64,000 bases of DNA from the NCBI GenBank assembly GCA_015179125.1, contig WHVA01000063.1:124001-188000 (forward strand). Direction: 5' to 3'. Positions 28,651 to 53,158 of the stretch are shown in pieces. Origin of the DNA: Gautieria morchelliformis. Lineage: Eukaryota > Basidiomycota > Agaricomycetes > Gomphales > Gomphaceae. The notes under the pieces were generated by a model. It was not told the origin of the DNA, made no database searches, and saw only the letters and a list, made by a program, of their open reading frames with translations. Positions within the stretch are counted from its first letter, which is position 1, and every line of letters begins with the position of its first letter. A program made the position numbers and the translations under genes.

Positions 28651-29375
28651 ATAGCAATAGTAAGAAGCGTTCTATTGAAGAGAATCGGTCTAAATCTTAC
28701 ATAGTGAGACAAGGTCGCGTTGGTGCGTCATTGAGTGAGCTGGCACTAGGCTTGGGCGCTGAATTTACTAGTGCTGTTTAAAAAAAATGATAAACTGCTT
28801 TCTGAGGAAGATACAGCTATATGCAGACCGGAGACACCGTCTGAACGGACCTAAACAGGGGTGCGATGGGTCAATATCCTCGGACCTCTGATATCAAAGG
28901 TACGTAGCCAGAAAGTCAGAGACCTTCTCAGCCGTGTTAAGGTTAGACATTCAGAGCCTGGGGAGGCCAGGTTGATATGTACATAGATATAAGTGGACGG
29001 TACGTTGGCATGGCCTTAACAAGTCTGGTAGTCAGAGCTCAGCGGACGTCGCCGAGCTACAGTAATACGGCTTAAACGCAGTGATATAAGTGCTTTGGTC
29101 CACAGTTTTGAGATAGCGGTTTTCTTACTGGAATGGGAACCAACCTCTGCGTCGTGCCCTCCGAAGAGATGTTCTTGTAATTGGGCCCGCAGCGAAGACG
29201 ATGATCAGTCAAAGGGGCACTGGAAACTTCAAATGGCTTACGATATTCTCCACAGTACGAAGAGTTTCAGACCTAGCCAATTCCAAATTCTTCCTTCGCT
29301 TCAGCTCGATCTTCTTAGCCGCCTTGCTAAACTTCTTCGCCCACAGGGATCAGCATAGGCTGTGGGATTGCCAGC
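28651..29375. other. Stretch without a supportable gene
   Basis: No convincing frame on either strand; nothing repeated elsewhere in the window. Confidence 0.5.
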
Positions 29376-29469
29376 AGTCATCGCGTTTTAGGGGTTTCAA
29401 CTTGTAGTTCGAATGACTCAGATTGGCGGCAAATGGCCGAAGCATTACCTGATAGCAGTAGGAAATTGA

Positions 29470-29880
29470 GGCCACGTTTGGTTAATCTATTCAGACCCCA
29501 CAACAAGCCTCGAGCTGGATCGAGCGTTTCTGACATTATCTAACATGCTGCAATCAGGTCAACTAATGGCAGTTACGAGCGGTTGATCTGTCCTTGCTCC
29601 AAATTTGTCCTATTAGCTTCATATCGATAGTATCGTCGTATTTAGATCACCTAAAGCATTACCTCGTAACCACAGGTGACTGTGGTCACGATTAGCTAGT
29701 CTATTCACACCCTACAACAAGCCTCAAGCTCGATCGACCATTTCCGACATCATTTGATATGCTGCAATTGGGTCGACTGATCGCAGCTCCGAGTGGTTGA
29801 TGTGTCCTCGCTCCAAGTTTGCCTTGTTAGCTTCATATCGGTAGTATCGTCGTATTTAGATCATCCAGTATCAAGTTGGG
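29470..29880. repeat. Two ~215-bp direct repeats inside the arm
   Basis: Two diverged tandem units share ACAACAAGCCTC, GCTGCAAT, GGTTGAT.TGTCC and TTAGCTTCATATCG.TAGTATCG. The mirrored pair occurs at about 50916-51326. Confidence 0.8.
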
Positions 29881-30542
29881 ATGGATTTGAGCACGGCCAC
29901 GCAGCCATGCCACGCTCAAGGTACGTCCACTGCCATTAAAATTTTGACTTAGATACATATTTATGAAGAGCTTCCAAAAAAAATAGATTGTGGTCCGAAT
30001 GCATGAGAGCCAGGCTGCCTTGAGGCTTAGCGCTTATCTATCAACGAGGCGGGGCATTATTTATATACACGCTGGGGCCTCTTTTCCACCACAACCCTCA
30101 CGAGTAACCACCAACTAGTACTGACCCCATCTTCCCTAATGTCCCAGGCCTCCTTCCATGTTGCTGCTAGTATTAGAGCGTAAGTCCAGTATTTGCCCCA
30201 CTATATCGTCTTCATTGATGCTCAGTGCATATATGAGCATATGCCACGTCACTTCTTATAGACGACATCAAGCCGGAACGGGTTGGGCGGGGAGCAGCTC
30301 ACGGTCACGGATATGGGGCGCACGTTTGCGGAGAGATGATCAATGTGTATCTGGAGCCGAGGAAAAGGACGTTTGAGGGGTGAGTCGGATTTGCTTGTCA
30401 TTTTGTCTTTTGTGTTCTTTTTTTTTTCTTTTTTCATGTGTCACGCAAGTGTTGTTCTGCACTCCCTCCACGCGTGTCCCGTGTTCGTTGTGCATCAGTT
30501 TCCGTATCCTCTTTCCTCCCGCCGGTTCGCTTCGTGCCATGT

Positions 30543-30740
30543 CCGTCTGCGTGCTGACTTGTTCTTGGTGTTCTCGCACCACCCCGTCCACCCACGCAGC
30601 CTCAAGCACAACCCCGACGACACATTTGACGACGCCGCTCTGGCGGCCATCCTGCACGCTGCGACCGGGCCACTACCGCACGTGGCACGCCCGCTGTTGT
30701 AAATGATGGGGATCGAGCAGGGGGGCGGGTAGGGCATGTG
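30543..30740 (+). pseudogene. Decayed fragment, possibly Ppo/linoleate diol synthase
   Basis: One frame reads LKHNPDDTFDDAALAAILHA. A second phase goes on ARGTPAVV and then MGIEQ near 30700-30722. This order (DD.LA.ILH, RGTP, MGIE) resembles the region before the end of the dioxygenase domain of fungal fatty-acid dioxygenases. There are frameshifts and no surrounding exons that I can assign. The mirror copy lies at 50056-50253. The identification is tentative. Confidence 0.35.
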
Positions 30741-31237
30741 CATGGTGCATTTTCGTTTCTTTTTTTTTTTCCTTTTTTTTCCTTTTTTTGTGTGCGGGAG
30801 CGGGGGCCCTTATGCGTGTGACGACTCATTGGCCTTTTTGAGTGAGGTCCACGTTGTTACCGCAGTATTTTTATTATCGGTTAGTCTGTACATATAGTAC
30901 TATTTAATTGGAGTGCAACGCAGGTACTAGAACAGATTTGGATTGTGCAGAGATATATATTTAAGATGTGCTCTGAGCCAGTAGAGTGTAACTGGAGTAT
31001 GAGTGGCTCAGATGTGTGGATGTAAATGGTTGTAACTGAATCTATATGCTCAATGAGTACATGGTATGTCTGGATCTATCTACATGTGACTACATATAGT
31101 AGCTGCCTGTGCAAGGAACGCACTTGAAGACTAGATAGACCTTGTGTTTGCCCGTCTGATGGTAAGCTGTACTTGGATATTGAACGTCTCCAGAATGAAA
31201 GCCTATTAACGATCGGGCAGATGTACTCGTGATCCGT

Positions 31238-31533
31238 TTCCTTACTCTCCATGCCCCACGATTAGCCACCCTAAACCCGGCGATTGGTGTCTATTCGGAC
31301 TATGAATACCTGCCGCCTCAACGCGGTGAGTGCCAACCTGGGGAATAATCCTTTCTCATCCAGTTTGTGTACGTCTTGTTCGTTACTGTATACAGCTTGC
31401 ATGGTGTGAAGATGCCATTACTGTAACAAACCGCGAAGATCCACTCCTCAATTTCACACATCTGTATGTTACAGCTAACCTGCCACCTGGGGCGATGTAT
31501 AAATTGACCGAAAGACACAGAGGTGCAGAGATC
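31238..31533 (+). pseudogene. Host-gene exon fragments interrupted by copia-2
   Basis: An exon ending NPAIGVYSDYEYLPPQR meets a donor GTGAGT at 31326. After an intron to CAG near 31396 a second exon reads AWCEDAITVTNREDP, then NFTHLYVTANLPPGAMYKL, to the copia-2 insertion point. After the element the frame goes on for a few codons from 36362. The gene is not recognised. Confidence 0.4.
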
Positions 31534-36356: not shown

Positions 36357-36623
36357 AAGATGCGAAGCAATCCTACGCCATGTCTGGTAGTAGGGTAGCC
36401 GCTTTTCTCACATCACGTAAGTTGGCAGCATGCGATACACACTCGGGTCTAAATAAATAATCTTGACATGTAACGATCCCGTTGTGGTTACCAGCCCCCT
36501 TCATTCAGCTAATACATTAATGTGGTTCTCGTGTTTTGAATATAAATATTGGCACGCTCTAGCATCATCATTTGACAACTTAAGCCCGGGGTCCATGACT
36601 GTTGTGTGATGCAGGGCTTTGTT

Positions 36624-36670
36624 ATCTGCACAAGGATAATCTTCAAGAGGACAATTATCCTTGTGCAGAT
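36624..36670. other. Hairpin 1 in repeat R
   Basis: 17-bp perfect stem: ATCTGCACAAGGATAAT and its complement ATTATCCTTGTGCAGAT around a 13-nt loop. The right copy has only the left arm. Confidence 0.9.
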
Positions 36671-36740
36671 ATGTGGCACCACTTTCAACCCTGCTGTACT
36701 CTCTCCTCCCAGTCTGCTTTCATGACTGATATTGCCCTGC

Positions 36741-36797
36741 GATTCAAAAGAATGGACAGGTCGAAGTCGAACTTCGACCTGTCCATTCTTTTGAATC
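36741..36797. other. Hairpin 2 in repeat R
   Basis: 27-bp perfect stem with a 3-nt loop (CGA): 36741-36767 pairs with 36771-36797. The right copy has the left arm only and runs straight on into AAGCCAGCACTTGAG. Confidence 0.95.
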
Positions 36798-36813
36798 ACA
36801 AAGCCAGCACTTG

Positions 36814-36870
36814 AGTCGCGACAGCCAAGAGCCCAATGACCGCTTCATTGGACTCTTGGCTGTCGCGACT
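36814..36870. other. Hairpin 3 in repeat R
   Basis: 36814-36839 pairs with 36845-36870 (26 bp, one C-A mismatch, loop CCGCT). The outer arm reads AGTCGCGACAGCCAAGAG. The right copy has only a diverged left arm. Confidence 0.93.
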
Positions 36871-36995
36871 AGTAAGCGCTCAGGAGATCAAGCAGTGCAA
36901 CTAGTCGACGGTCCTGGTGAGCCTGATGAGCAGCGAGTAACTTATTCCAGCTGAGACTACCGGCGAGGCTTTCAAAACAAGTGACGCAAGGCTCT

Positions 36996-38272
36996 TGTCA
37001 AGATTGGTTTTTAGGCGTTAATATTGTGTATTTAGTGAACACAACGAATGCCCGAATAACTTGTGCGAATAAGTATGCCGTTCGGCGAATAAGTGAACCG
37101 ATGAATGTTCACGAAACAAAGGGGTTGCCCGAACGGGGCTCGCCCTGTCTACAGTCGTAGCGAAACAGCTCGCAGCACTTGACGACGCAACGTGCAAGAT
37201 ATTGCGGAAGGGCTGTCTAAATTTCGACGGTCCCTTCGCTGGCGAAGGTGCCCCTTAGGAGCCCTTCGCCAACAGCACAGAAAGTAGTTCGAAGGCTAAG
37301 GTAACGAAGATGAAGTATGAGAACTCACCAGTGATGCCTAAGTCCTTGGCTGGTCGAAGATAGAAATCTTCAAAGAGAGGCTCAAGACGATGATCACAGC
37401 GAGGTCAAGTTTGCACAAGATGGACGACGTATGATAATTGAACTGGGGAATATACATGCGAATGTAAACTACTTATATCGAATGCTCGTACAGTATCAGC
37501 GAATAGGAAAGAGGCCGTCACAAGTCAGGGTTGGATAGGGGCGCGCAGTCATGAATACAGCATAGATGAAATAAACATACAATAGAATGTGAGGAGAGGG
37601 GGAACATGAAACGACGGAGAGTAAAGGTGGCGAAGGCACTTATGGACAAAACCATGTCTTGGGACCCGCATACATGCTTCCCTGCACGGACTCTTGGTCT
37701 ACTGGGTCGATTCCGCACGACCTATGGAAGGGATGCCCTGCGAACACATTTTGACCATACGAACGCCCAATGGGGTTGGTTTAAGAAGACGATGGGGTTA
37801 ATGATGAACCATCATGCCGGGTGAATGGCATCGATCGTATTTGATGGTGTGCCTGCTGGCGAATGATGCGAGCAGCGACTAGCCATTCGGCGAAATGCAA
37901 GGAAGGGCGAACAGAGGTGGCCTAGTGGGGAGAGGTCGAGGTAGAGGGCGAAGCCGAGCGAACACCGAGGAGGAGTAGCGAAAGGGAAAATGGGGATACC
38001 AAGGTGTTGGAAATACACTGGTCATGGAAATCCAACTATCAGAACACCATCAGAGGAGGGTCGAACAGCGGAGGTAGTAGACCCAGTGATGACTTGTCAA
38101 GTCAGTCCAAAACCGTTGGTCGTGCATTTTAACGGCGTGGCGGTGGTAGCGGGCGCAAATCAGCGAATATCGGTTGCCGAACATGATAATAGCGATCGGA
38201 ACGAACACAGAAATGGGGTGAGAAATGTCAGGACAGAGCACCTGAGTTATGAGGAATAAACGCGTCATGACA
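36996..38272. mobile_element. LTR-like insertion of 1277 bp
   Basis: Begins TGTCAAGATTGG and ends GTCATGACA. It is flanked by GCTCT (36991-36995 and 38273-38277) and lies in repeat R; the uninterrupted sequence is at 49190-49210. No protein is recognised in it. It is probably a long solo LTR or a non-autonomous element; the TGTCA ends are inverted for only five bases. Confidence 0.7.
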
Positions 38273-38380
38273 GCTCTCTGTAGATGCCAGTCCAGTAACG
38301 TTGAAGCTCAAGATGGGGGGAGAGAGTGAGAACGTGTGCAGTGTTTCGGTTGCCATGAAAGGGGTTTGCGGGAGGCTAGG

Positions 38381-38601
38381 TGTAAGATGGGTTAGAGAGG
38401 ACTTCGAAATATCTTAGCAGACGGGATGACCAGTCGTAACCAAGTATATGTTCGGGGTCAGTTTTCTCTATCGTACATGTATTGTTTCGGTAGGCTACTT
38501 ATATGAGAAGACACGGGCCTAGGTGCCCGTGTCTTACCTTTTGGTATGCATAAGTGGTCGGCCATATTGGGTCTCCGCTGGTAATTATGCCGTTCCTTAC
38601 A
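38381..38601 (-). repeat. 3' LTR of gypsy-2
   Basis: 221 bp from TGTAAGATGGG to CCTTACA. It contains a 10-bp hairpin (AGACACGGGC and its complement) that is mutated in the other LTR. Confidence 0.92.
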
Positions 38602-38844
38602 CTCGCCCTCCCTGTTCGACGCAGTCGGACAAAACACGCTGAAGGCCAAAAGGTACTTTTGAAGCCCAGTAGATTCAAAAAAAGCTGGTAAAGTACACTC
38701 ATGTTTCAGACATATTTATGTCGGTTGATGAAAAACTTTGGAAGAAGAAAAGGGTACGTGGCACGTTGGTGCCGTTACATCTAGTAATTCTCGATCTCGA
38801 ACGGCAGCTCAGTCAGATTATTCGTCAAGCTGTCTGGGAACGTC

Positions 38845-39907
38845 TCAGACGCGTCCGCCGTTACGTCCATATTGGAGTCTGTTTTGATCCCAGGTGCCAT
38901 TGGCAACACGGCTGCAAATTTTAGATATGACGTCGGTAAGTGCTGAACAGGTACTGGTGTGAGGCTGATGAGGCATACCCTTGCCCTTGCCTTTTCCAGG
39001 TTCGCTAGCGCTGTCCTTGAGGCGCTCCGTCATTTCGTTCTGCAGGGCTTCCAAGGCCACGCGCTGTGATTCGATGACTCTCGCTAGGTCGGAAAGGCGA
39101 GTTGAGACCCGGGACAACGAGCTGCTCTCGTCGTAGTTGCGGGCGGATTTGCGGTGGGAAGGGGGCGCGTGGTTTTTATAAACATGCGGTTTGTACCACC
39201 CCTTGTTTCTGCCGCGCCAACCTCCTCGCCCTCCTCAGCCACCTCTGTAGGTCTTTGTGCCACCATGGCCATTTCCGCGATCGAAGTCGCGGATTTTCTG
39301 CATCAGCGCCATGTTATCGTCCATTGACATCAAGCCGGTGGCAGGCGCGGGAATCGGCGCGTACGCTGGATACCCGGGGTAAGGATTCCCAGCTGGGTAG
39401 GGCCCGTGCGCGCCGGCGTAAGGATGGGATACGTGAGCAGTTGGGAGCTGCACATTGCGGTGAGCGTCCAAGATCTCGGCAGGAGGACACTGAACGCGAA
39501 CTCTAGCTTCCTCAGCATTCCGGGTTTTTTTTATGATTCGTTGCCCATTTCTCAAACCCATCGGGAGCGTCACCAGGGTGTGGGGCACCATAGTTTGCGT
39601 TCTCGGTAAGTTTATAGAGGTATTGATAGAACGTGAAGGCCTCTTCAGCAGAATGCATCTGTCTGGAGGGGGTGTGTGTTGGGGGGGTTGAACTCGACCT
39701 TGGTGAGTTTATATGTAATTCCCCGTGCGTGTCTATTATGTTTGCTTGTAGGTCCACTGAATCGGTCAGAGAGGCAACGAATGTTTCAGGGACATCGGCC
39801 TGTATTCGCACGTCTGAGGGTGGGTTTCCTGAACCACTTATCATATGATCTATCTGGTCAATACCGTTGTTTTCCAGGTATGCCTCTAGTGCTGACAGAT
39901 GTTTCAT
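38845..39907 (-). pseudogene. gypsy-2 C-terminal tail with RGG box
   Basis: After the integrase end (MKHLSALEAYLENNGIDQ, matching VKHLAALDAYLEEQDI of gypsy-1) the tail runs in several phases. It has a Pro/Tyr stretch (PYPAGNPYPGYPAYAP), MSMDDNMALMQKIRDFDRG, a Gly/Arg stretch near 39190-39240, and a helical stretch SRVSTRLSDLARVIESQRV to 38845. Frameshifts are present near 39520, 39230 and 39110. Confidence 0.65.
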
Positions 39908-42900
39908 GGCGCCATAGTGTAACCAGGTCCGATCCCCAGACTGCCATCAGTGGTTTCTGGTTGCGCAATTTCCCCGTTGCACACGTGTGGCAGGTGGCGC
40001 AGTAGTCTGTCACATCCTGGTGCATGCCCGGCCACCACGCGTTGCTTCTGAGGTAATGAAAAGTCTTTCGCCCTCCCAGATGCGCTAACATCGAGTGTGC
40101 GTGGGAGATCAGGACCTCCCTGATGGATTCTCCATTGGTCAGGCCGTCGGGTATGCATAGGAGCTCCAGACCATGCTCAGTCAGGTAATACAGGCCGTCG
40201 CGTACGCTGAAGTTGTTGTACGTGTTGGGCTCCTTCTGCATCTTACTGAAGAATTTATCCTCACTATATAGGTTCCTAAGACAGTCCGGGAACTTCAGGG
40301 ATGGGTGCATCATCGATACAACCTTGGAAAAGGGAGGCGGTGTGTATTGTTCATCGTCTCCTGCTATCGGTAACAAGTCTGGTAGGGGTTCGTCGGACTC
40401 CTCTCTTAGGGGACTCATCGCGTCTTGGTCGTCTACCATGGTGTGAGCGGCTCGCTCTGTTATTACTGCGCGGGGCGGCTCAGGGCCCTTGTCACGGGAC
40501 GCTTGCTGAGGTGACTTCTTTTTCATTTTCTTCGATTTTTTCTTATTGTTTTGTCGTACTTTTAGCAGTGCCGCGCGGGCCTCTTCGCTGATAGGCAGGA
40601 CGGCGACCCCTCTGGCAGAGTGGTCATCTGGGCGAGTGGCACGTGCAGTTCTTATGCGCGTGCTTGCCCTTACCGGCTGCTCCTCTGGAGCTTGGTTAGA
40701 GACCGGCGGGCCGTTCTTGGCACGCTCTGCTCTAATCAACGCTGCTATTTGCAGGTCTACCTCGCCCTTTGCCTCAGCTCCCATGAGGAGAGGACAAGAG
40801 AGGCTTTGCAGCGATGTAGGGATGTCAGGTGCGTCGTTCTCGTGGATATATTCTGAGTCGGCCCTGACAATTCCCAAGCTCTCGTTGCTGTAGATGCGTG
40901 ACAACGCGTCTGCGAATATGTTGGTCGGGCCCGGGATATATTTGATCTCAAAGGTAAAGTCACTTAGCAGATCTATCCAGCGTTGTTGGCACGCTGACAG
41001 GTTTTTCTGCTTCATGAGGAATTCAATCGGCTTGTGATCTGTGTAGATATCGAAGCGGATGCCTAGCAATAGGTATCTGTAGCGCTTGAGGGATTCAACC
41101 ATGGCAAGTAATTCCCTTTTGTGCACAGGGTAGTTTTGCTGTGCTGAATTGAATTTTCCTGACCAGAACACGATGATGTTGACGTTCGGAGGTTTGCCTT
41201 GTGTCACTATTCCTCCTCCCCCAGTCTGACTTGCGTCTATATTCAGACTCACAGGGTTCTCAACGGGATCGGCCTTGTAGTCGATCGGTAATCGATGTAA
41301 GTCCCGGTACTTCTGTATGGAGGATTTGATTTCCTCAAATGCTCGTTGTTCTGTAGGGCCCCACCTCCAAACCCTAGTTGCGCCGGTGAGTGTGCTCAGC
41401 ACAGAGCTGCTGAGCCATAGCCCAGGGCAGTTATCTGAGAGATAACCGGCGATGCCCACGAATTGAGCTAGAAGTGCTTTATTCGTGGGTGTCTTCCAGT
41501 TTGCAATTTGGTCTACTTTGTGGGGATCCATGACGATACCCTTGTCGTCTATGACATGCCCTAGTACGTCCAGTTGTCTAGCGAAAAACTGAAGTTTGTG
41601 CACGCCAGCTAAATAGATTTTAGCTTCACGCAGTAGGCGCATTGCAAGGTGGCAGTGTTCCATGTGTTCCTCAATTGTGTCTGAGTACACCGCAATGTCA
41701 TCCAGGTAGACATTGAAGCATACACCGATGTATGGCGCGAAAATGTGAGTCATCAGCGTTTGGAAGGTCGTAGGTGCGTTGCAATCTCCCTGCTGCATCA
41801 CCAGGCTGACCATCGTTCCATCCGGTGTGTTGAACAGAGTTTTCCACACATCATCGGGTTCAATGCGCACAGATTCGAACGCATCCCTGCAGTCGATGAG
41901 TGAACGGTAACGTCGTCGGCTTACGTTCATCAGTATATTTTGCTGATCTGGGATAGGACTCGCCATTTTCTTTGTGTTCGCATTGCGTTCATGCTCGTCG
42001 AAGACGGTGCGTAGGCGTGGAGTGCCATCGGCAGCGGGCTTTTTGCTAACCATCATCATAGGTATAGCGTTGTGGCTGACGTGATATTGCCAATGTCCGG
42101 TCTTGAGATATTTGTCTCTTTTTGCACGCCATTGATCTTTCATGGCCTCAGGGCATTTGGATGGCCGGTAAGAGTAATTTTTAGATTCATCTATTACATG
42201 AATCTTATGATTGATTGCTCGTAGCGGCGGGAGCGGCGTGTCTTCTGCAGGGGTGCAGAGATCAGCCGCTTCTTGCCTCAGCTGCTCGCGCAGCTTTTCT
42301 AGCTCATCTTCTACGAAGTCCGCGGCCATCGAAGAGATTTTAGCAACATCTGCACCATTTATGGGAGCCGCCGCATCGCTACCTATCACTACCTTGGAGG
42401 GATTAAATCCGAGGAGGATCTTGTGTTGCCACAAGAAAGGGGTACCAAGAATGACATCGTGATTTTCTAGGTTGATGACGTTGAAACGACGACGTTCGTG
42501 AATACTCTGGTACGTGAATTCAGTTTCTACGCAGCTCGTGATCATGGTTTTATATCCTGATGCGGCCATTTGGCACGGGATCGGCTTTGCCAGGTGTTGC
42601 ACCGGCAGCCTGAGTTGATCTACGATGGTTGTAGAGATGAAGTTGGATAGGGATCCGCTGTCGAGCAGCGCACAGACGGCCTTTCCAGATAAGTTGCATT
42701 CTACTATAATGGATTTTGGGACTAATCGCTGAAAATCCTTAGGTTTCGATGTGTTACACTCTAAGGTGCGCATACTATCTGGGTAGACTTCAGTTTCTGG
42801 CTTCTGATGAGCCCACTTCTTTTTTGTTACAGATGTGCCTATCGCGTCGCAGGATATATGGTCAGGGGACGATGGTGAGTCGTATCCTGGGGACTCGCAT

Positions 42901-43532
42901 CGTTCTGCCCATGCGTTTTCTTCTGACGCATCGGCTAGGTCTTCGCCATGGTTGGTGAGACCCATCCAGGCTTTCCTGGCCATCTCTTCTGGTTCATTGC
43001 GATGGTCGTCAGCTCTTTCCAACCAGAGCGCGTCTAATGAATCGGGGAACATGTCTGGGTGAGTGGTGTTATTATGATGGTGCATCCACTGTACATAATA
43101 AAATTCAGGTTTGAATATGTGGCCGATTTGAACGCAGTATGTCCGTCTCAAGAATCTATTGATGATGAGTACTGATTTCTCATCGACGTCATTGGTTAGC
43201 GGAATTGCATTATATCTCTTTGGCCAGTCTTGTTTGTCAGGGTTTTCTATGCCATCATGCGGCATGGCGTTAGAAATGCCCGAGCAAAGGTCGTCATAGA
43301 AGCATTGCGCGAAATCATTCGCGCGGACCGATTGTAAGAATTCTTCTTCAGAATCGTTATCTGACTCATCGCCTGCATTCTCAGGGGTTACCTCTGGTGG
43401 AAAACCGCTACTATCAGTGGTACCGGTAGCTGCTGTACTGTCCATCGGTGAGTCCAGCTCCATGCAGTTCAGCTGCAGTGCCATTTGGCTATGAGCCGTA
43501 TCTGACGCTTCCTGCAGCTTAGCAAAGTTCAC
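39858..43532 (-). pseudogene. gypsy-2 pol: protease, RT, RNase H, integrase zinc finger
   Basis: One open frame of about 1224 codons. Protease: VCALLDSGSLSNFIST. RT: LIDCRDAFESVRIE, MQQGDCNAPTTFQ and NVYLDDIAVYS. RNase H: SLNIDASQTGGGGIVTQG, FDIYTDHKPIEFLM and TNIFADALSRIY. Integrase keeps only the H2C2 finger (SHAHSMLAHLGGRKTFHYLR, then CATCHTCATGK). It then jumps to DRTWLHYGAMKHLSALEAYL in another phase near 39950, so the whole catalytic core is gone. The frame continues upstream through one TGA into the zinc knuckle at 43584. Confidence 0.88.
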
Positions 43533-43583
43533 AACTGCTGCCTGGATGCCAGGAGGCCTTACTGTAGAGCGGTGAGGACAATC

Positions 43584-43844
43584 TCAAGATAAGTGTCCTT
43601 TTTGTTCACAGATGAAACATTGATTATTTGCACGTAGTTCATCATGTTTTTCTGGCGTCATCTGAGGCTGTTGTATGGTAGCGCGAGGAGTACGCGGATT
43701 TGGCTGTGTCACTGCAGAAGTGGGACGTGTTCTGTCAGTGGTTGCTGACTGCTTAGGGCCACACCAGCGGTTGCTCCGTATGGTGAGTGGCAGCTTATTC
43801 GCAGTTCTATTCAGCCTCTGAATTGAGCGCGTCCTTCCTGTCAC
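43584..43844 (-). pseudogene. gypsy-2 gag zinc knuckle, interrupted by TGA
   Basis: The CCHC motif CFICEQKGHLS is followed by TGA and then GAT TGT (Asp-Cys). Arg (CGA) stands here in gypsy-1 (HLSRDC). The stop lies inside the knuckle, so it looks like a point mutation rather than a gag-pol readthrough site. Confidence 0.85.
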
Positions 43845-43850
43845 TGTCGT

Positions 43851-44294
43851 TCAATCTGCATGCATCATTGTGGACGCTTGCACGTCCTTGCTGGCCCGAC
43901 GTAGTTCATACAGTCGTAAGGTTTCCGCATTCTCATATCGCTCTGCTGACAGTTCTAGGTCATCTAACGTGGAGAACTCGGGGGTAAACCCATTCTCAGT
44001 CCATTTCAGTCGTAAGTAAGACTGTACACCATCCCAGAACCGCTGTATCAGCTGGAATTCGGTGATGTCAGGCAGTCGTGCCGCCATTGATCGTAGTAGG
44101 CGGAGGTATTCCTTTACAGTGCGCTTTCCTTGAACAAGTTCGTTGAAACGAGTCCTCATCTGCCTTCTAAAGGCAGGAGGAAAGCAGTAGTTGAACAGGC
44201 CATGTCCAACGGATTCGATGGTCCAGTGCTTAATATCAGGCGTGATAAATGTCATAAAATACTGTTGCGCCTTTCCTGACATGAAGGCAAGCAT
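43851..44294 (-). pseudogene. gypsy-2 gag capsid part
   Basis: MLAFMSGKAQQYFMTFITPD, then FRRQMRTRFNELVQGKRTVK and LPDITEFQLIQRFWDG: homologous to gypsy-1 gag. It is separated from the leader part by a one-base loss near 44385 and from the knuckle by another shift near 43850. Confidence 0.85.
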
Positions 44295-44344
44295 CTGTTT
44301 GACATGATGTTTCTTAGGGAAACCGGTGATCTCAAACCAAACGT

Positions 44345-45682
44345 TTACGGCATATGACCAACGCTCGAAGGCATCAAAGTCCGGTGTGCCCCATCATAAG
44401 CGGTGGGTGTATCAATCTTCACTCTGGTCACCGTGTCCTTCTTGGACCTCCGCTGCTCACGGTCGTCATTTTTCCTTTCAGGACAGTTAGCAGCGCGGAG
44501 CGTTCTTGCGCTACTACTGGACGAGCTTGAGTCAGACGAATCAGATCCATCTGGGTCTGGCTGCCCAGCCGGCGCTATGTTTCTTGCGAAGTAGCTCATG
44601 GGAGGAGCCTGATCTGCCGCCTTATGCATCTTGCGCGGGATGCTGGGCTTCATAACATTCCCTCCTGGTGTTATGCCTCGCAGCCTTATGATGTCCGGCA
44701 ATTCGGACGATCTAGTGCGCTTATACGGTACTTCGGCGTTCACGGTGGCTTCGTCTGTTGAGCTAGTGTCGCTCAAGGTGAGACTTTTGATTGACTGCAG
44801 TGAGATCTGAGGCTTCTCTACAGATTTGTGCTCGTCGGTGTGTTCATCGATTGTCTCAGAGGGGGTAACGCCACTCCCTTTCTGACATGCGTCTTTCATA
44901 TAGGAGGATTCTGCTACGGGCGGCGTGCTCATGGCGTAGGATGGCCAGGCGGGCACGTAGGGAGAGATTGCGCTACGAGTAGTGCAGGAGTCTATGTCCA
45001 TTGTGCGCTTAAGGTGCTTGTATCTCTCCGCTCGAGCGTATAGCTCATTCTGTACGTCGTTGTCTAGGCCATGCAGTATGTTCGCCATGAATTCCATGTA
45101 AGAGTTATGCGTATCTGCGTCTGGTTCGTGTATTTCACGACTAGTACGCATTGGCTGTCTCAAGTTGTTATTAGGCTCGGTTCCTCCCCAACCAGTCAGC
45201 ATGTGACCGTACGGGTGTTCAGAGCCATCGAAGTCCTCCCACCTAATGGGGGTATACTCCCTATCGTTGGGAGGGGCAACGCCAGCATTACTGCTGGGTG
45301 CGGCTCCTACTGGGTTGCGCTCGGCGCTCCCAGGAGCATCCACGGCTTCTACCTTGGCCATATGAAGGCCTGAGGGAGCGTCAACGTGCTCAGCAGTCGA
45401 GAGCACGTCTGAGACGGAGGGGGGAAGTGGTACCTCCTCCACCCTAACCTCGTTGAGGGTGTCTGCTGAGGGCATAGATCCCTCACGACTGGTCATTTGT
45501 AGCGGCGCCTGGGACGGCAGGTGCGTTGTACCCCGTCCGTCCCCCTGTCGTCTACTCAGTGCCTCATGGAACGCCGTCAGGCGTTCACCCTGAGTGGTAT
45601 CGAGTGTACGTACCGCATCCATGCTGGCAGCACGCTGTGGGCGCGTTGCCCGTTGGTACGTTCGGCCGGTTCGAGTCGACAT
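44345..45682 (-). pseudogene. gypsy-2 gag leader part
   Basis: The frame opens at 45724, but the ATG at 45682 (MSTRTGRTYQRAT) matches the gypsy-1 start and is chosen. It is Ser/Glu/Arg-rich with poly-Ser (SDSSDSSSSSSS) before VKIDTPTAYDGAH, where the frame is lost. Unlike gypsy-1, leader and gag are one frame here. Confidence 0.75.
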
Positions 45683-45783
45683 AGTGGGTCTGGTTAGTTG
45701 TGGGAAGTTGTGCGATATGCTCACCAGTTGATCAGGCCGGAGAGTTTCGGAAGGTGTTGGATTTGTGAAGATGGGTCAAAAAA

Positions 45784-46005
45784 TGTAAGATGGGTTAGAG
45801 GGGACTTCGAAATATCTTAGCAGACGGGATGACCAGTCGTAACCAAGTATATGTTCGGGGTCAGTTCTCTCTATCGTACATGTATTGTTTCAGTAGGCTA
45901 CTTATATGAGAAGACACGGGCCTAGGTACCCGTGTCGTACCTTTTGGTATGCGTAAGTGGTCGGCCGTATTGGGTCTCCGCTGGTAATTATGCCGGTTCC
46001 TCACA
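45784..46005 (-). repeat. 5' LTR of gypsy-2
   Basis: 222 bp, about 96 percent like its partner. The sequence inside it starts with six T and RACCC, as in gypsy-1, without an obvious TGG primer site. Confidence 0.92.
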
Positions 46006-46010
46006 CTAGG

Positions 46011-46254
46011 TCACGTGTCTGCCGACTTTTGGCTGCCACATACATAATAATCATAATGTACTAGTCTCCGGTTCGATAGTCTTGGCTGGATGGGCAATGG
46101 CAATGGCTGAAGCCCACATCGTTAGTGCACTGTCGCAAGATTTAGGAACGATGAGGAATATGTATTTGTTAGAAGTACTGCCAAACTCAGATGCCAAAGC
46201 TTGCCAAGCGGTCACGTGCAGGTCATGTGATAGAAATTGTCGTCAGCGCTAAAT
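46011..46254. repeat. Repeat R, left copy, last part
   Basis: TCACGTGTCTGCCGACTTTTGG to GTCAGCGCTAAAT matches 49308-49464, with about 60 extra bases near 46100-46190. Both copies stop matching their surroundings at the same base. Confidence 0.85.
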
Positions 46255-46298
46255 ATTTAGCGCTGACGACAATTTCTATCACATGACCTGCACGTGAC
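46211..46298. other. Perfect 88-bp palindrome
   Basis: 44 bases of the end of repeat R (GTCACGTGCAGG to GCGCTAAAT) are followed with no spacer by their exact reverse complement. The right edge joins a truncated transposase gene. Confidence 0.97.
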
Positions 46299-47643
46299 GA
46301 GGATGGTCTCGGCAAGATCGAGTATTATCCATATATACATCCAGCAATCAGATTCCTTATCTTGGTAAAGCTGGGCTCTGTCTATTGATAGCATGACGGC
46401 GATATTAATGTCCTTCAGGTCTTCACGGATGACAGCGTTGAGGTAATCGCTGCCATGGTAGAGATCATCATACGTTCCAATGCTCGTCCCATCTCGCGCT
46501 AACTGCCTGAGGATATCCCTTGTTTTCTCCCTTCGATGTTTCATCAAACGCGCAGTCTCGGGGTTTCGCCAAAGGGCCTGCAGCTGAGGGCCTAGTGGAA
46601 TTGTGTGGAAGGTGAGCACTGGTTTCCATGTCATACCATTGCTCCTCTCGAACTCAGGTTCGTCATATCGATTGGTGCCGCAGTATGGGCAGGCCTGAAG
46701 GTGAGCCAAAGGTCCATTGAACGCCATGCAAAACCTGCGGCACACATCCTGCTCGATCGTCTCGACCCCTGCCCATGCAGCAATCCTGGATTTTACTTGT
46801 TCTAAAGATAGCATAGGATCTTGGGGATACCGCTCATTGTGATTAAGCTGGAAATCGTGATAGGTTTGCTGAGATGAGCGTTGGGCAGCAAGAAACTGTT
46901 TAAGAGAATATACATCATTGGGATCCGAAATGTTGAGAGTAGATTGAGGCGGGTTCCGAATACGATCCACTACATCCTCTGAAAGATCGCCGTTGTCGAG
47001 AGATGCTGTCTTGACAGTGTGGATGTAGTCGAGGGCCTGCCTGAGATGAGGCAAGTGTGGCCTGTTATCCTGACGCTCCTGATGCTCCTGTTCCTCCGGA
47101 TCCTCTTCCACGGGACCTGGAGAAGCGGGTTCTGACCTATCATCTTCCTGTAAAGAAAAGAATGGGTGTTCCTGTTCTATTGATGAACTTGGACCTCCCC
47201 TGAGTTCGACAGAGCCGTGTTCTGCATGAAAAAAATTCAGCATGGGTCACAGTAATAATCATGCTAATTTACCTGATGGCTCATAGTCGGATGGACAACC
47301 CCCATCGACTTCACCTTTGTCCATGGCTTCAAACCGGCCCTGGCCAAAAATTTTCAACTTTCCTTGACTAACATGCCAATATGTACAGACGTACCATGTG
47401 ATCGCGTCCTTGCGATCCAACAGAGAGAATGTCTTCATTACCATGAGAGTCCATACTATGGTTCTGCTCATTAGCCTGGCTAACGTCGTCCGGGCCTTCT
47501 TCCATCGCCAATCCAAGTGCAAGAGGCTGGAGTTCCGAGCGGCGCTCAGCCTCATGACGATGGTACGTCGCGTACAATACCATTCTCTCGCAGCGACAGT
47601 ATAGCTGACACGTGCAGAGGTGGCAGTCACGCCTACGTGCCAT
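46299..47643 (-). pseudogene. CMC (EnSpm/Plavaka-like) transposase, 3'-truncated
   Basis: N-terminal part of a fungal CACTA-group transposase gene. The start MARRRDCHLCTCQLYCRC has a Cys-rich zinc-finger-like N-terminus. Two introns follow (donor GTACGT near 47390; GTAAAT to CAG near 47272-47222). The main exon contains LKQFLAAQRSSQQTYHDF, the motif CPYCGTNRYDEP, FHTIPLGPQLQALWRNPE, DDLYHGSDYL, VMLSIDRAQLYQDKESDCW and YIWIILDL. The gene breaks off after DLAETIL at the 88-bp palindrome, before the rest of the catalytic domain. Confidence 0.8.
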
Positions 47644-48231
47644 GGTGGCACTAGTGTTCGAGCAATATTTGAGCAATAGGTTCAAGCAAGCAAAGTGAGA
47701 GGAGGAGGATGGAGGAGAAGGGAGCGGATGCACCAGTGGTTTTTAAGTCCTTGTTTTTATGAAAACTCGTGTTTCGACGCGAGTCCAATTGCTGAAGTAA
47801 AAATGCACGAGTCCCAGTGTGAGGCAAGGTGAGAGGAGATAGGAGCGGATGCTTTAGCTTTATGAAAACCTTGCGTTTGTTGTTAAGTAAAAAGTCAGGG
47901 GTTTCGAAAGTTTTGAAAAGATTACGTTCAGGAATTTATGAAAAGTCCTTGCGTTTTTGCAAAGCGAGTCGTTGACGCGTTGACGCGACGTGTCGACGGA
48001 CCTTGAAAATTTTCGGTTCGTGTTTTTTTTACGCCTGGAGACGGTGCGGTCATATCTGGCCAGTTTAGATTCCATTTCTCAAAACGATTCTAGAAAATCG
48101 AGCTCTCTAAAAATAGCATGTCCCGCGCATCATCTGGGGACCGATATCTACCGATCCTAACCGACTCGTCATCACATCTACCGCTCCCACCCGGTGCCAC
48201 CTCCCTGGATCCGGGGCATTTCTCACTGGGG
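47644..48231. other. Stretch without a recognised gene
   Basis: Would hold the 5' flank of the truncated transposase. T-rich and CTTGCG-containing repeats near 47750-48010; no terminal CACTA sequence was found. Confidence 0.4.
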
Positions 48232-48570
48232 CTAAATACTGGGGCTTATCTCCTCAACTGGGGACGCTGCAGAACTCGTCCCCTGGAATCTTTCAAGGCT
48301 GTAGTCCATGTACGCATCCAATAACCGACACAGTTCACAAAGGTCCTCCTCCATTCCAGCACAGCGACACACACGTGAAAAACCAGGCGGGTATCTGAGC
48401 AGGAGGCCGTCGATGTCGGCAGGTTGCACGTCGGATGTATGGGTGACAAATTCAAGTAGAACAAGCTCCTGGAGCGAATACTCGTCAAGGAGGGCATATG
48501 TCCTGGCACTCGCAGTAGTGGTGGAGTTGGCAGAGAGCACCTTGGACTTAGCCTTAGAAATAGACCGCCC
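48232..48570 (-). pseudogene. Unidentified coding fragment cut by repeat R
   Basis: A minus-strand frame reads SKVLSANSTTTASARTYALL, then YSLQELVLLEFVTHTSDVQP and RLLDAYMDYSLERFQG. Regular hydrophobic spacing suggests real coding sequence. The right copy of repeat R begins at 48571, where the sense would change. The gene is not recognised. Confidence 0.3.
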
Positions 48571-49464
48571 TGTTGTGTGACGGAGGGGTTTGTTATCTGT
48601 ACAATGATAGTCTTCGGGGGGAGTGTGACACGGGGACATCGCTGCGCTCGACCCTATCTCAAGCGATTCCGGGTCAGTGTCAAAACTGGGATTTAGCTAA
48701 GAATGTTGAGAATTATATCGACTCGACGACTCGTGTGGGAAACTCACTGTTGGGGAAGGTAAGTCGCTTTCATGACTGATATCGCGCTGCGATTCAAAAG
48801 CATGGATTGGACGAAGCCAGCACTTGAGTGGCGAGAGCCAAGAGAATGAGGGGGTAAGGGGATTTTTGAACGTAAACATGTCCTAAAAAAATTAGGCAAC
48901 TATCTGTCAGTTAGCCATAGTGACATTAAATGGAGACCTCACGCGACAGATCTCAGGAATGCAGGACTTCCAGGAAGAAACAAAGGCAGCTCGAATGCTC
49001 GCCATGCCAGTGGGAACAGCGATCTGGGGAGAAAGAAAGAACTTGGGCGAAGTAACAGTGCAACCAACGCAGAGCTCAGGTGTCCGCTCAGGGGATCAAG
49101 CAGCGCAACTAGCCGACGGTCCTGGTGAGTCTGACGAGCAGCGAGTAACTTATTCCAGCCGAGACTACGCGCGAGGCTTTCAACACAAGTGACGCAAGGC
49201 TCTCTGTAGATGCCAGTCAAGTAACGCTGAAGCTCAAGATGGGGGCGAGAGTGAGAAACGTGTGCAGTGTTTCGGAATTGCCATGAAAGGGGTTCGCGGA
49301 AGGCTAGGTCACGTGTCTGCCGACTTTTGGATGTATACATAATAATCATGATGTACTAGTCTCCGGTTCGATAGTCGTCGCTGGATGGGCGATGGCGACG
49401 CGCCAAAGCTTGCCAAGTGGTCACGTGCAGATCATGTGATTGGCAGGCGACGTCAGCGCTAAAT
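48571..49464. repeat. Repeat R, right copy (uninterrupted)
   Basis: Runs from TGTTGTGTGACG to GTCAGCGCTAAATA, without the hairpins or insertions of the left copy. A plus frame at 48920-49192 (GESDEQRVTYSSRDYARGFQ) may be remnant coding sequence. Directly after it starts the right arm of the large inverted repeat. Confidence 0.75.
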
Positions 49465-51421
49465 ACTCACCGCGTTGAGGCGGCAGGTATTCATAGTCCG
49501 AATAGACACCAATCGCCGGGTTTAGGGTGGCTAATCGTGGGGCATGGAGAGTAAGGAAACGGATCACGAGTACATCTGCCCGATCGTTAATAGGCTTTCA
49601 TTCTGGAGACGTTCAATATCCAAGTACAGCTTACCATCAGACGGGCAAACACAAGGTCTATCTAGTCTTCAAGTGCGTTCCTTGCACAGGCAGCTACTAT
49701 ATGTAGTCACATGTAGATAGATCCAGACATACCATGTACTCATTGAGCATATAGATTCAGTTACAACCATTTACATCCACACATCTGAGCCACTCATACT
49801 CCAGTTACACTCTACTGGCTCAGAGCACATCTTAAATATATATCTCTGCACAATCCAAATCTGTTCTAGTACCTGCGTTGCACTCCAATTAAATAGTACT
49901 ATATGTACAGACTAACCGATAATAAAAATACTGCGGTAACAACGTGGACCTCACTCAAAAAGGCCAATGAGTCGTCACACGCATAAGGGCCCCCGCTCCC
50001 GCACACAAAAAAAGGAAAAAAAAGGAAAAAAAAAAAGAAACGAAAATGCACCATGCACATGCCCTACCCGCCCCCCTGCTCGATCCCCATCATTTACAAC
50101 AGCGGGCGTGCCACGTGCGGTAGTGGCCCGGTCGCAGCGTGCAGGATGGCCGCCAGAGCGGCGTCGTCAAATGTGTCGTCGGGGTTGTGCTTGAGGCTGC
50201 GTGGGTGGACGGGGTGGTGCGAGAACACCAAGAACAAGTCAGCACGCAGACGGACATGGCACGAAGCGAACCGGCGGGAGGAAAGAGGATACGGAAACTG
50301 ATGCACAACGAACACGGGACACGCGTGGAGGGAGTGCAGAACAACACTTGCGTGACACATGAAAAAAGAAAAAAAAAAGAACACAAAAGACAAAATGACA
50401 AGCAAATCCGACTCACCCCTCAAACGTCCTTTTCCTCGGCTCCAGATACACATTGATCATCTCTCCGCAAACGTGCGCCCCATATCCGTGACCGTGAGCT
50501 GCTCCCCGCCCAACCCGTTCCGGCTTGATGTCGTCTATAAGAAGTGACGTGGCATATGCTCATATATGCACTGAGCATCAATGAAGACGATATAGTGGGG
50601 CAAATACTGGACTTACGCTCTAATACTAGCAGCAACATGGAAGGAGGCCTGGGACATTAGGGAAGATGGGGTCAGTACTAGTTGGTGGTTACTCGTGAGG
50701 GTTGTGGTGGAAAAGAGGCCCCAGCGTGTATATAAATAATGCCCCGCCTCGTTGATAGATAAGCGCTAAGCCTCAAGGCAGCCTGGCTCTCATGCATTCG
50801 GACCACAATCTATTTTTTTTGGAAGCTCTTCATAAATATGTATCTAAGTCAAAATTTTAATGGCAGTGGACGTACCTTGAGCGCGGCATGGCTGCGTGGC
50901 CGTGCTCAAATCCATCCCAACTTGATACTGGATGATCTAAATACGACGATACTACCGATATGAAGCTAACAAGGCAAACTTGGAGCAAGGACACATCAAC
51001 CACTCGGAGCTGCGATCAGTCGACCCAATTGCAGCATATCAAATGATGTCGGAAATGGTCGATCGAGCTTGAGGCTTGTTGTAGGGTGTGAATAGACTAG
51101 CTAATCGTGACCACAGTCACCTGTGGTTACGAGGTAATGCTTTAGGTGATCTAAATACGACGATACTATCGATATGAAGCTAATAGGACAAATTTGGAGC
51201 AAGGACAGATCAACCGCTCGTAACTGCCATTAGTTGACCTGATTGCAGCATGTTAGATAATGTCAGAAACGCTCGATCCAGCTCGAGGCTTGTTGTGAGG
51301 TCTGAATAGATTAACCAAACGTGGCCTCAATTTCCTACTGCTATCAGGTAATGCTTCGGCCATTTGCTGCCAATCTGAGTCATTCGAACTACAAGTAGAA
51401 ACCCCTAAAACGCGGTGACTG
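49465..51421 (-). repeat. Right arm of the ~1.96 kb inverted repeat
   Basis: Reverse complement of 29376-31331. It differs at few positions, for example near 50883 (CGCGGC against CCACGC in the partner) and near 51300. It contains the mirror copies of the tandem repeat and the dioxygenase-like remnant. Confidence 0.95.
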
Positions 51422-51458: not shown

Positions 51459-51650
51459 ATGGTCCACACACGAATCAACGAACGCCACGCAAACCCCAAC
51501 CCGCACATCAACTTTATCTCTGCCCTCCCTTCCGGTTCCCACCGCGCGGCCGAGGAAGACCCAGAAGCAACGGAGCTCCTGCGCGTGCTGGCTGCGCAGC
51601 TGAATCCTGTCATGAAAGCACACGGGTTGACGGTGAATAGCTTCGAGGAG
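51459..51650 (+). pseudogene. First exon of a WLM-domain (WSS1-type) metalloprotease
   Basis: Starts MVHTRINERHANPNPHINFI and continues LLRVLAAQLNPVMKAHGLTV, then NSFEE at a GT donor (51651). This is the start of the WLM domain of fungal Wss1-like proteases, which act in DNA-protein crosslink repair. No downstream exon with the HExxH site follows within the next kilobases, so the gene is truncated. It begins 38 bp outside the right arm of the inverted repeat. Confidence 0.65.
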
Positions 51651-53158
51651 GTGTGTCCATGCTCCGTGCTGTCGCCGTCTGCGGGTCCCTGCACGCAGCC
51701 GACTCATTACAGCGCTTTGCAGTACGTAAGGCGGGCGCTTGTTTTGCTTCCATTATTCGGCGGCCAAAATTAAAACAGCTGTAGAATAGCTAGTTCTCCA
51801 TGGATTCAATCCAAATTTGAAATACAAGGTTATATGAGCTTATATGAGGGCACAGTACCCTAACATTGATGTATATCAACTGGTAAAAAATTCGCATTTT
51901 TGGCCAGCTGCCCCTGGACTAGAATGTCTATTGCAAGCTGAATATATGCCAGAACCAATAACTTGTTGACAGATCATGTACTCAGGACATATGTTGAGGG
52001 ATTGAACTGCATTTACGCTTTATATATGTCACAGACTAATTATATTCACAAAATAAATGAGTCGGAGCGGCAGGCGCAACAGCAGCGAGAGGGAGACTCG
52101 ATGAGCGATGCGCGCATCGCGCTCCCACTCGTCCTGTGCACGCGAGAAAAGGTGCTGCAGTCCCCTTGAGTGCAGAGTGTCATGGACCCACTAGCAGCGT
52201 GGGGCGACGTGGACCAGGAGCACGAGGCGAGCTTGAAAAGGAGCGCGGGGTGACATGGACCACCAGGGGCACAGGGCGATGTCGAGAAAGGGCGCGGGTG
52301 ATGTCGAGAAGGAGCGGGGTGATGTGGACCACCAGGCACGCGGGGCGATGCGGACCTGCCAGGAGCGCAGAGTGACATGGACCCACCAGGAGCGTGGGGA
52401 TGAGTCGGAACGGCAGGAGCAGTAGCAGCGATGGGGAGACTCGAAGCGAGATGCGGGGGAAGGTTCTGGATGGAGATGCGTTCATCAGGTGAGACATATA
52501 TCTAATGAATCAAACTTAACATACACGCACAGGCGCAGCACGCGCAGCCGTTGCCACATGCGATGAGGGCAGAGTACGCGCTTCCCACCCCAATCTTCCG
52601 CACCTCCTCAGTGACCCAGCCCGTCGGCCCTGGGGTGGATGTGTCACGGGGATGCGTGGTGAAGCTGCGGGAGCTCAAGCTCGCTGTGGGGGAGCCACAG
52701 GTGATGTGGACCCACCAGGAGCGTGAGGCGATGTGGACCAGGAGGAGGCGAGGCGACGTGGACCAGGAGTGCGGGACGAGTTGGAGCGGCAGGAGCAGCA
52801 GCATTGAAGTTGGGAATTGGCGTCGAACTAGGACCGGCTTGCTTCAGGTAGAAAAAATTCATAATGTCGGTTTCTAGACCCAAGTCTTTCCGTTCCTTGA
52901 GGGGAGTAAAATATGTGGTAGTTATGCTCAATCTTGGGCTGGAAGATGAGCCGAGAGCACTCTAGCAGATAAGTGCTATGCGCCTGCCAACAATCTCTTG
53001 TTTCCCATCAAAGAGAATCTATAGCTTGATAAGTAGATGCGTAGTCCACCCTGATAGAGCGTACCTGACTCAATGTACGTTCCGAATCTGGGGGAGTTAT
53101 CGTTGCGAGGGGTTTTAGCGTTACCGAATGCCTCTAAGATGGGATTGGTCGCAAGAAT
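51651..53158. other. Gene-poor stretch with GC-rich minisatellites
   Basis: At 52180-52410 and 52690-52800 units resembling GGGGTGATGTGGACCACCAGG recur with variation. Long frames over them are periodic artefacts. No gene is supported. Confidence 0.6.

Follow-up and report, generated by a model that had tools for sequence, protein, structure and literature searches.

The window analysed here is a 64-kb stretch (64,000 nucleotides) of contig C704 (320,413 bases), part of the 122-Mb assembly of Gautieria morchelliformis, a truffle-like gomphalean basidiomycete. Two copies of a gene-family locus, R1 and R2, lie on the two sides of a transposon fragment, and the right part of R1 ends in a palindrome. 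The features are listed below by position and strand.

36599–36651, plus: R1 segment S1 (aligned with C185/L057 1501–1553); 36623–36640 is the original arm of hairpin 1
36654–36671, minus: inverted copy of 36623–36640 (hairpin 1; 18 of 18 positions), in place of about 156 bp found in C185 and R2
36672–36721, minus: segment U, inverted relative to C185, C221, C386 and C559
36738–36767, plus: segment S2, original arm of hairpin 2 (hairpin scan and alignment with relatives)
36771–36800, minus: inverted copy of hairpin 2 (29 of 30), a pure insertion with nothing lost
36814–36839, plus: segment S3, original arm of hairpin 3 (hairpin scan and alignment with relatives)
36840–36870, minus: inverted copy of hairpin 3 (25 of 26), in place of 235 bp found in R2 and R3
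36877–36995, plus: R1 segment S4, 92% identical to R2 49085–49203
36996–38272, no strand assigned: 1.3-kb insertion in R1, flanked by GCTCT/GCTCT (boundaries by eye)
38273–38380, plus: continuation of S4, 92% identical to R2 49199–49309
38381–46005, minus: LTR retroelement nested in R1, with RVT_1, RNase H and an integrase zinc finger (Gypsy-type), flanked by CTAGG/CTAGG
46006–46210, plus: right part of R1 up to the palindrome (alignment with R copies)
46211–46254, plus: original palindrome arm, belonging to R1; aligns with R2 49420–49464, R3 (C773, reverse strand) and partly R4 (C704:45178–45223)
46255–46298, minus: inverted copy of 46211–46254, an exact reverse complement missing from R2, R3 and R4
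46299–46300, no strand assigned: junction filler GA, matching neither the reverse complement of onward R nor the transposon copies (partly by eye)
46301–48233, minus: CACTA/CMC-type transposon fragment that lacks one end and whose transposase frame is truncated at 46301; over 1.9 kb it is 96–97% identical to C257 and C604
48264–49467, plus: R2, second gene-family copy, without hairpins (frame P0072 is read from R2)
49468–51417, plus: transposon I1, copy B, flanked by ACT/ACT, interrupting R2 close to where R1 has its palindrome centre (boundaries by eye)

With its insertions removed, R1 matched R2, R3 (on C773), part of R4 (at 45 kb of C704) and further copies on C185, C221, C386, C559 and C172, and it was therefore identified as one copy, now decayed, of a gene-family locus of the host. 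R is a multicopy locus of this kind and not a mobile repeat, and 46254/46255 is a breakpoint within the copy R1. The frame of R2 (154 residues) was identical to part of a hypothetical protein of Gautieria morchelliformis (next best protein, 94%) for which 8 further relatives were found, 4 of them in the same species; no Pfam match was obtained for this frame. R1 is split by three insertions, each between 5-base direct repeats (boundaries by eye), namely an RVT_2 (Copia-type) element flanked by AAGAT, the 1.3-kb insertion and the Gypsy-type element, whose LTRs of about 224 bp are 96% alike. On its left side, R1 joins a segment whose only match elsewhere, in that search, was at 42 kb of C704, oppositely oriented and 2.3 kb away from R4. 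A recent origin of R1 from R2 was considered and found unsupported, with S2 matching C185 at 44 of 45 positions and R2 at 39 of 45 (by eye).

Several rearrangements were observed around the R copies. The flank at 29088–29378 also adjoins R in C172 and C221, oriented relative to R oppositely to the window, an arrangement that suggests an older inversion. Long stretches are common to contig C773 and the window; judged from these alignments, C773 is likely the other haplotype or a duplicated region. It carries R3 and the first part of a WLM-like gene (C773:36071–39014) in the orientation opposite to that of the window, and the breakpoint falls at window positions 51706–51709. In the window, this gene start lies at 51459–51710, beside R2 and I1, and its WLM match is below threshold (E 6.1e-4, 20.4 bits vs 26).

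The initial annotation had taken 46254 for the natural end of R, which the other copies did not support. R2 appears to stop at the position of the palindrome centre because I1 sits there between ACT and ACT. When I1 was removed, R2 read TAAATACTGGGCATC (TAAATACT-GGGCATC), which is not palindromic. R3 and R4 diverged 6 and 11 bases before the palindrome centre, respectively (by eye; the BLAST alignments stop at 46248 and 46233), and a mobile element R ending at 46254 was accordingly rejected. I1 itself is a dispersed element, with an inverted copy at 29379–31328 (99.7% identical by BLAST) that has AGT on both sides. The two I1 copies enclose the block of R1, transposon and R2; recombination between them could invert some 18 kb without altering the flanking AGT and ACT, which are mutual reverse complements.

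Direct comparison of 46211–46254 with 46255–46298 bore out the 88-bp perfect palindrome reported earlier: the two arms are exact reverse complements (44 + 44 bases) with zero spacer, and the next outer pair is mismatched (46210 G and 46299 G). A hairpin scan (arms of at least 14 bases, loop up to 60, one mismatch tolerated) found four hairpins in the 64-kb window, at 36623–36671, 36738–36800, 36814–36870 and 46211–46298, all inside R1 (arm lengths in the scan, in ascending order, 18, 18, 30 and 44). In a first-order Markov control with 60 resamples of the window, the mean count of hairpins with arms of at least 14 was 0.2, and the longest arm was 17 bases, reached in one resample. Other loci of the same genome (237,916 letters, partly overlapping; L001, L005, L009, L048, L056 and L061, which cover R1's own arms, left out) yielded 10 hairpins with arms of 14–16 bases and none longer. 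The clustering of the four events in R1 is real. The earlier proposal that one process acted on R holds for this one copy, whose hairpins are changes of the same kind; no other fetched copy had arms above 16 bases. Nor were other R copies joined to inverted copies of themselves present among the matches listed.

A transposon does follow the palindrome, as had been noted, with the two bases GA in between. Close copies on C257, C604 and C193 run uninterrupted across 46301, match the window from that position and differ from it leftward. At the break, the last 44 bases of R1 are followed by their own inverted copy and by GA, and these connect R1 to a CACTA/CMC-type transposon that is itself broken internally. 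The claim that the transposase gene was cut in mid-domain holds weakly: a frame crossing the break in locus L002 gave a Transposase_21 match over that point (E 0.017, 14.8 bits vs a cut-off of 28.6), and the window's own transposase frame gave no Pfam match. The CMC assignment rests mainly on the homologues of this frame, 22 of 71 of which carry PF02992; those that are named come from mushroom-forming fungi. A search for the missing transposon side with a 1.5-kb query from left of the break returned 11 matches, among which none of those listed was on C704 or C773. No microhomology was seen by eye at the transposon junction.

Alignment with the relatives was used to determine the direction of each event. 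In all four, native sequence runs without interruption from the left into the left arm, which is the original; the right arm is the added copy. The second arm of the palindrome was absent from all three relatives covering the site (R2, R3 and, in part, R4), the second arm of hairpin 1 from all seven relatives having S1 (R2, R3/C773, C185, C221, C386, C559 in part, and C172), and the second arms of hairpins 2 and 3 from six of six (R2, R3/C773, C185, C221, C386 and C559). Sequence was lost at the junctions of hairpins 1 and 3 and of the palindrome. Hairpin 2 arose without loss, as 34 bases placed between S2 and S3, which are contiguous in all six relatives having S2; TCGAA at this site has no template, a feature of end joining. 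In hairpin 3, the copy extends 5 bases past the end of the first arm (reverse complement AGCGG; GGCGG in C773, C221, C386 and C559). Segment U had been counted in the chain of changes private to R1 and was dropped from it: R2 has at 48765–48785 only GCTTTCATGACTG, an apparent remnant of the same inversion, so that this inversion is probably older than the hairpins.

The letters of the arms were then compared with those of the relatives. R1's own form ATAGAAATTG is present in both palindrome arms and was not found in R2, R3 or R4. Both arms of hairpin 1 carry the combination GCACAAGG, seen in none of the seven relatives, where its two variable bases occur singly. The palindrome and hairpin 1 thus share R1's own letters between their arms, which fits copying in cis, or later arm correction. 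The arms of hairpin 2 match C185 as well as they match each other, and the copy in hairpin 3 has T, as do 5 of 6 relatives, where the left arm of R1 has C. By these letters, the source of hairpins 2 and 3 may be another R locus; a later point change would also do.

We consider it probable that the right palindrome arm is a 44-base, locally templated inverted insertion at a rearrangement junction, and an insertion of this type would explain all four events. R1 would have undergone a series of short-range template switches, or fold-back synthesis, while it was being repaired or replicated. A strand extended from left to right would leave its template, copy 18–44 bases back along the complementary strand, and re-engage directly ahead, some 150–235 bp ahead, or in the transposon. 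Intra- and inter-strand switches both yield such products in the four-point template-switch model, as set out in the available text of its descriptions (PMC8794818, PMC7954356). The reverse-complement copies are absent from the ancestral sequence, as reconstructed from relatives that differ from R1 by 2–21%, depending on the segment. Fold-back on the strand itself needs a loop, which hairpin 1 (13 bases) and hairpin 2 (3–5 bases in the scan) have and the palindrome lacks. The zero-spacer palindrome, at a site where R2 is not self-complementary, and the hairpin 3 copy starting 5 bases past its arm are the two centres, of four, that favour an inter-strand switch (to the opposite strand, parental or sister) over a strand folding on itself; the offset in hairpin 3 could instead reflect later trimming of a loop. 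Against template switching, the second switch of the palindrome does not lead back to R, whereas a return to the original strand is part of the four-point model; the transposon junction without visible microhomology and the untemplated TCGAA at hairpin 2 also speak against it. Such a return is seen directly in hairpin 2 and after a jump in hairpin 3, while hairpin 1 is followed by the inverted segment U. The kind of copying error is known; four of them in about 1.2 kb of one gene copy is the unusual part.

The initial annotation had offered two ways in which the break was sealed, a template switch, which is the best fit, and a hairpin-capped end, which fits the zero spacer poorly. In the latter, a resected 3′ end would fold on itself and prime synthesis, and the hairpin would be opened and joined to the transposon fragment. 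The loops of hairpins 1 and 2 suit such intra-strand folding, and yeast foldback inversions used stems of 4–15 bp (PMC7467729, available text). A centre without spacer requires a palindromic seed, however, and R2 without I1 reads TAAATACTGGG there; a pre-existing inverted repeat with a loop, as in the yeast events, was found neither at the palindrome nor at hairpin 3, although hairpin 1 could have had one. The hairpin 3 copy, moreover, begins beyond the end of its first arm, and the yeast events, in the text at hand, are gross chromosomal rearrangements and not duplications of 18–44 bases (PMC7467729). A hairpin-capped end is therefore regarded as unlikely here.

If two copies of one broken end, sister or allelic, had been fused by end joining and later trimmed to 44 bases, the zero spacer would be accounted for; end trimming and filler would also explain why the centres show offsets of 5 and about 11 bases and contain untemplated bases. 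This route would need a second break within 18–44 bases of the fusion four times over and leaves the short arms unexplained, and we hold it improbable. An assembly or sequencing artefact deserves mention since the assembly holds one copy of R1 with these arms; it is still less probable, because the four are separate short events within the contig, in two of which the arms have since come to differ at one point, and fold-backs in reads are as a rule long and terminal. A snap-back templated insertion made by theta-type end joining is very improbable. Templated insertions are its mark in metazoans and are rare in yeast, according to the portion of the source available (PMC9779921), and Pezizomycotina have, within the text available, a POLQ-like helicase without the polymerase domain (PMC8469720). 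The genome weakly disfavours it, since its single DNA polymerase A match, a 1312-aa frame on C682, is perhaps the mitochondrial polymerase; in the search of the genome for the POLQ_helical domain, no control gave a signal. Head-to-head termini of a mobile element R would give a palindromic join and dispersed copies, but this is scarcely credible, as no element boundary lies at the palindrome (R2 continues past 46254, and R3 and R4 stop matching 6 and 11 bases short of it) and the transposon is broken at an internal point.

Returning to template switching, the relation of the four events to one another was considered. All four have the same polarity, which fits a single run and has a 1 in 8 chance if they were independent. 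Of the 118 positions paired between arms in the four events together, 2 differ, vs about 4% between the LTRs of the two retroelements nested in R1. The earlier argument that the palindrome is unstable, hence young, is indirectly supported by this low divergence; later arm correction would look alike. One left-to-right run with at least four switches, a micro-scale chromoanasynthesis ending in the transposon, that would have made the three-hairpin region 36599–36880 at once as a possible new source of small RNA against R relatives, is held to be unlikely. When 36599–36880 was folded as RNA, three long stems were predicted (−149.6 kcal/mol, z −15.9), and none of 200 shuffles was as low. No match to known RNA families above the gathering score was obtained in the window. 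New microRNAs have reportedly been described, in a 2023 paper, as arising by template switching. If the four events were one run, R1 would hold a compact natural record of a stutter of the copying machine and a direct case of near-perfect hairpins born within a gene family. Comparison with as many as seven sibling copies, which act as natural controls, allows the states before and after several of the backward copies to be followed at single-base level in a wild basidiomycete.

The R1 events were compared with known systems; no paper on template-switch inverted duplications in basidiomycetes was found in the limited literature collection searched. Short-range template-switch mutations are the closest in form, sharing, in the available text, the local reverse-complement copy, the new perfect inverted repeat and the intra- or inter-strand geometry (PMC7954356, PMC8794818); R1 differs in having four in one 1.2-kb gene copy, with one polarity, one of which ends in a transposon. 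For events at breaks, two systems come nearest. Foldback inversions of Saccharomyces cerevisiae likewise show an inverted duplication at a break with a small centre, but, as far as the source is available, they are gross rearrangements formed via hairpins of existing short inverted repeats (PMC7467729), whereas the R1 copies span 18–44 bases and two of their centres have no such seed in the relatives. In human double minutes, the second of these systems, short palindromes (stems of 12–24) lie at rearrangement junctions, with inserted bases in the arms; these are cancer amplicons for which the authors, in the portion seen, suppose untemplated synthesis (PMC3734650), whereas the arm in R1 duplicates the sequence next to it. 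Arm homogenisation in yeast also involves template switching between inverted arms in a fungus, and, within the text available, it changes existing imperfect repeats (PMC8604942), whereas in R1 new arms were added.
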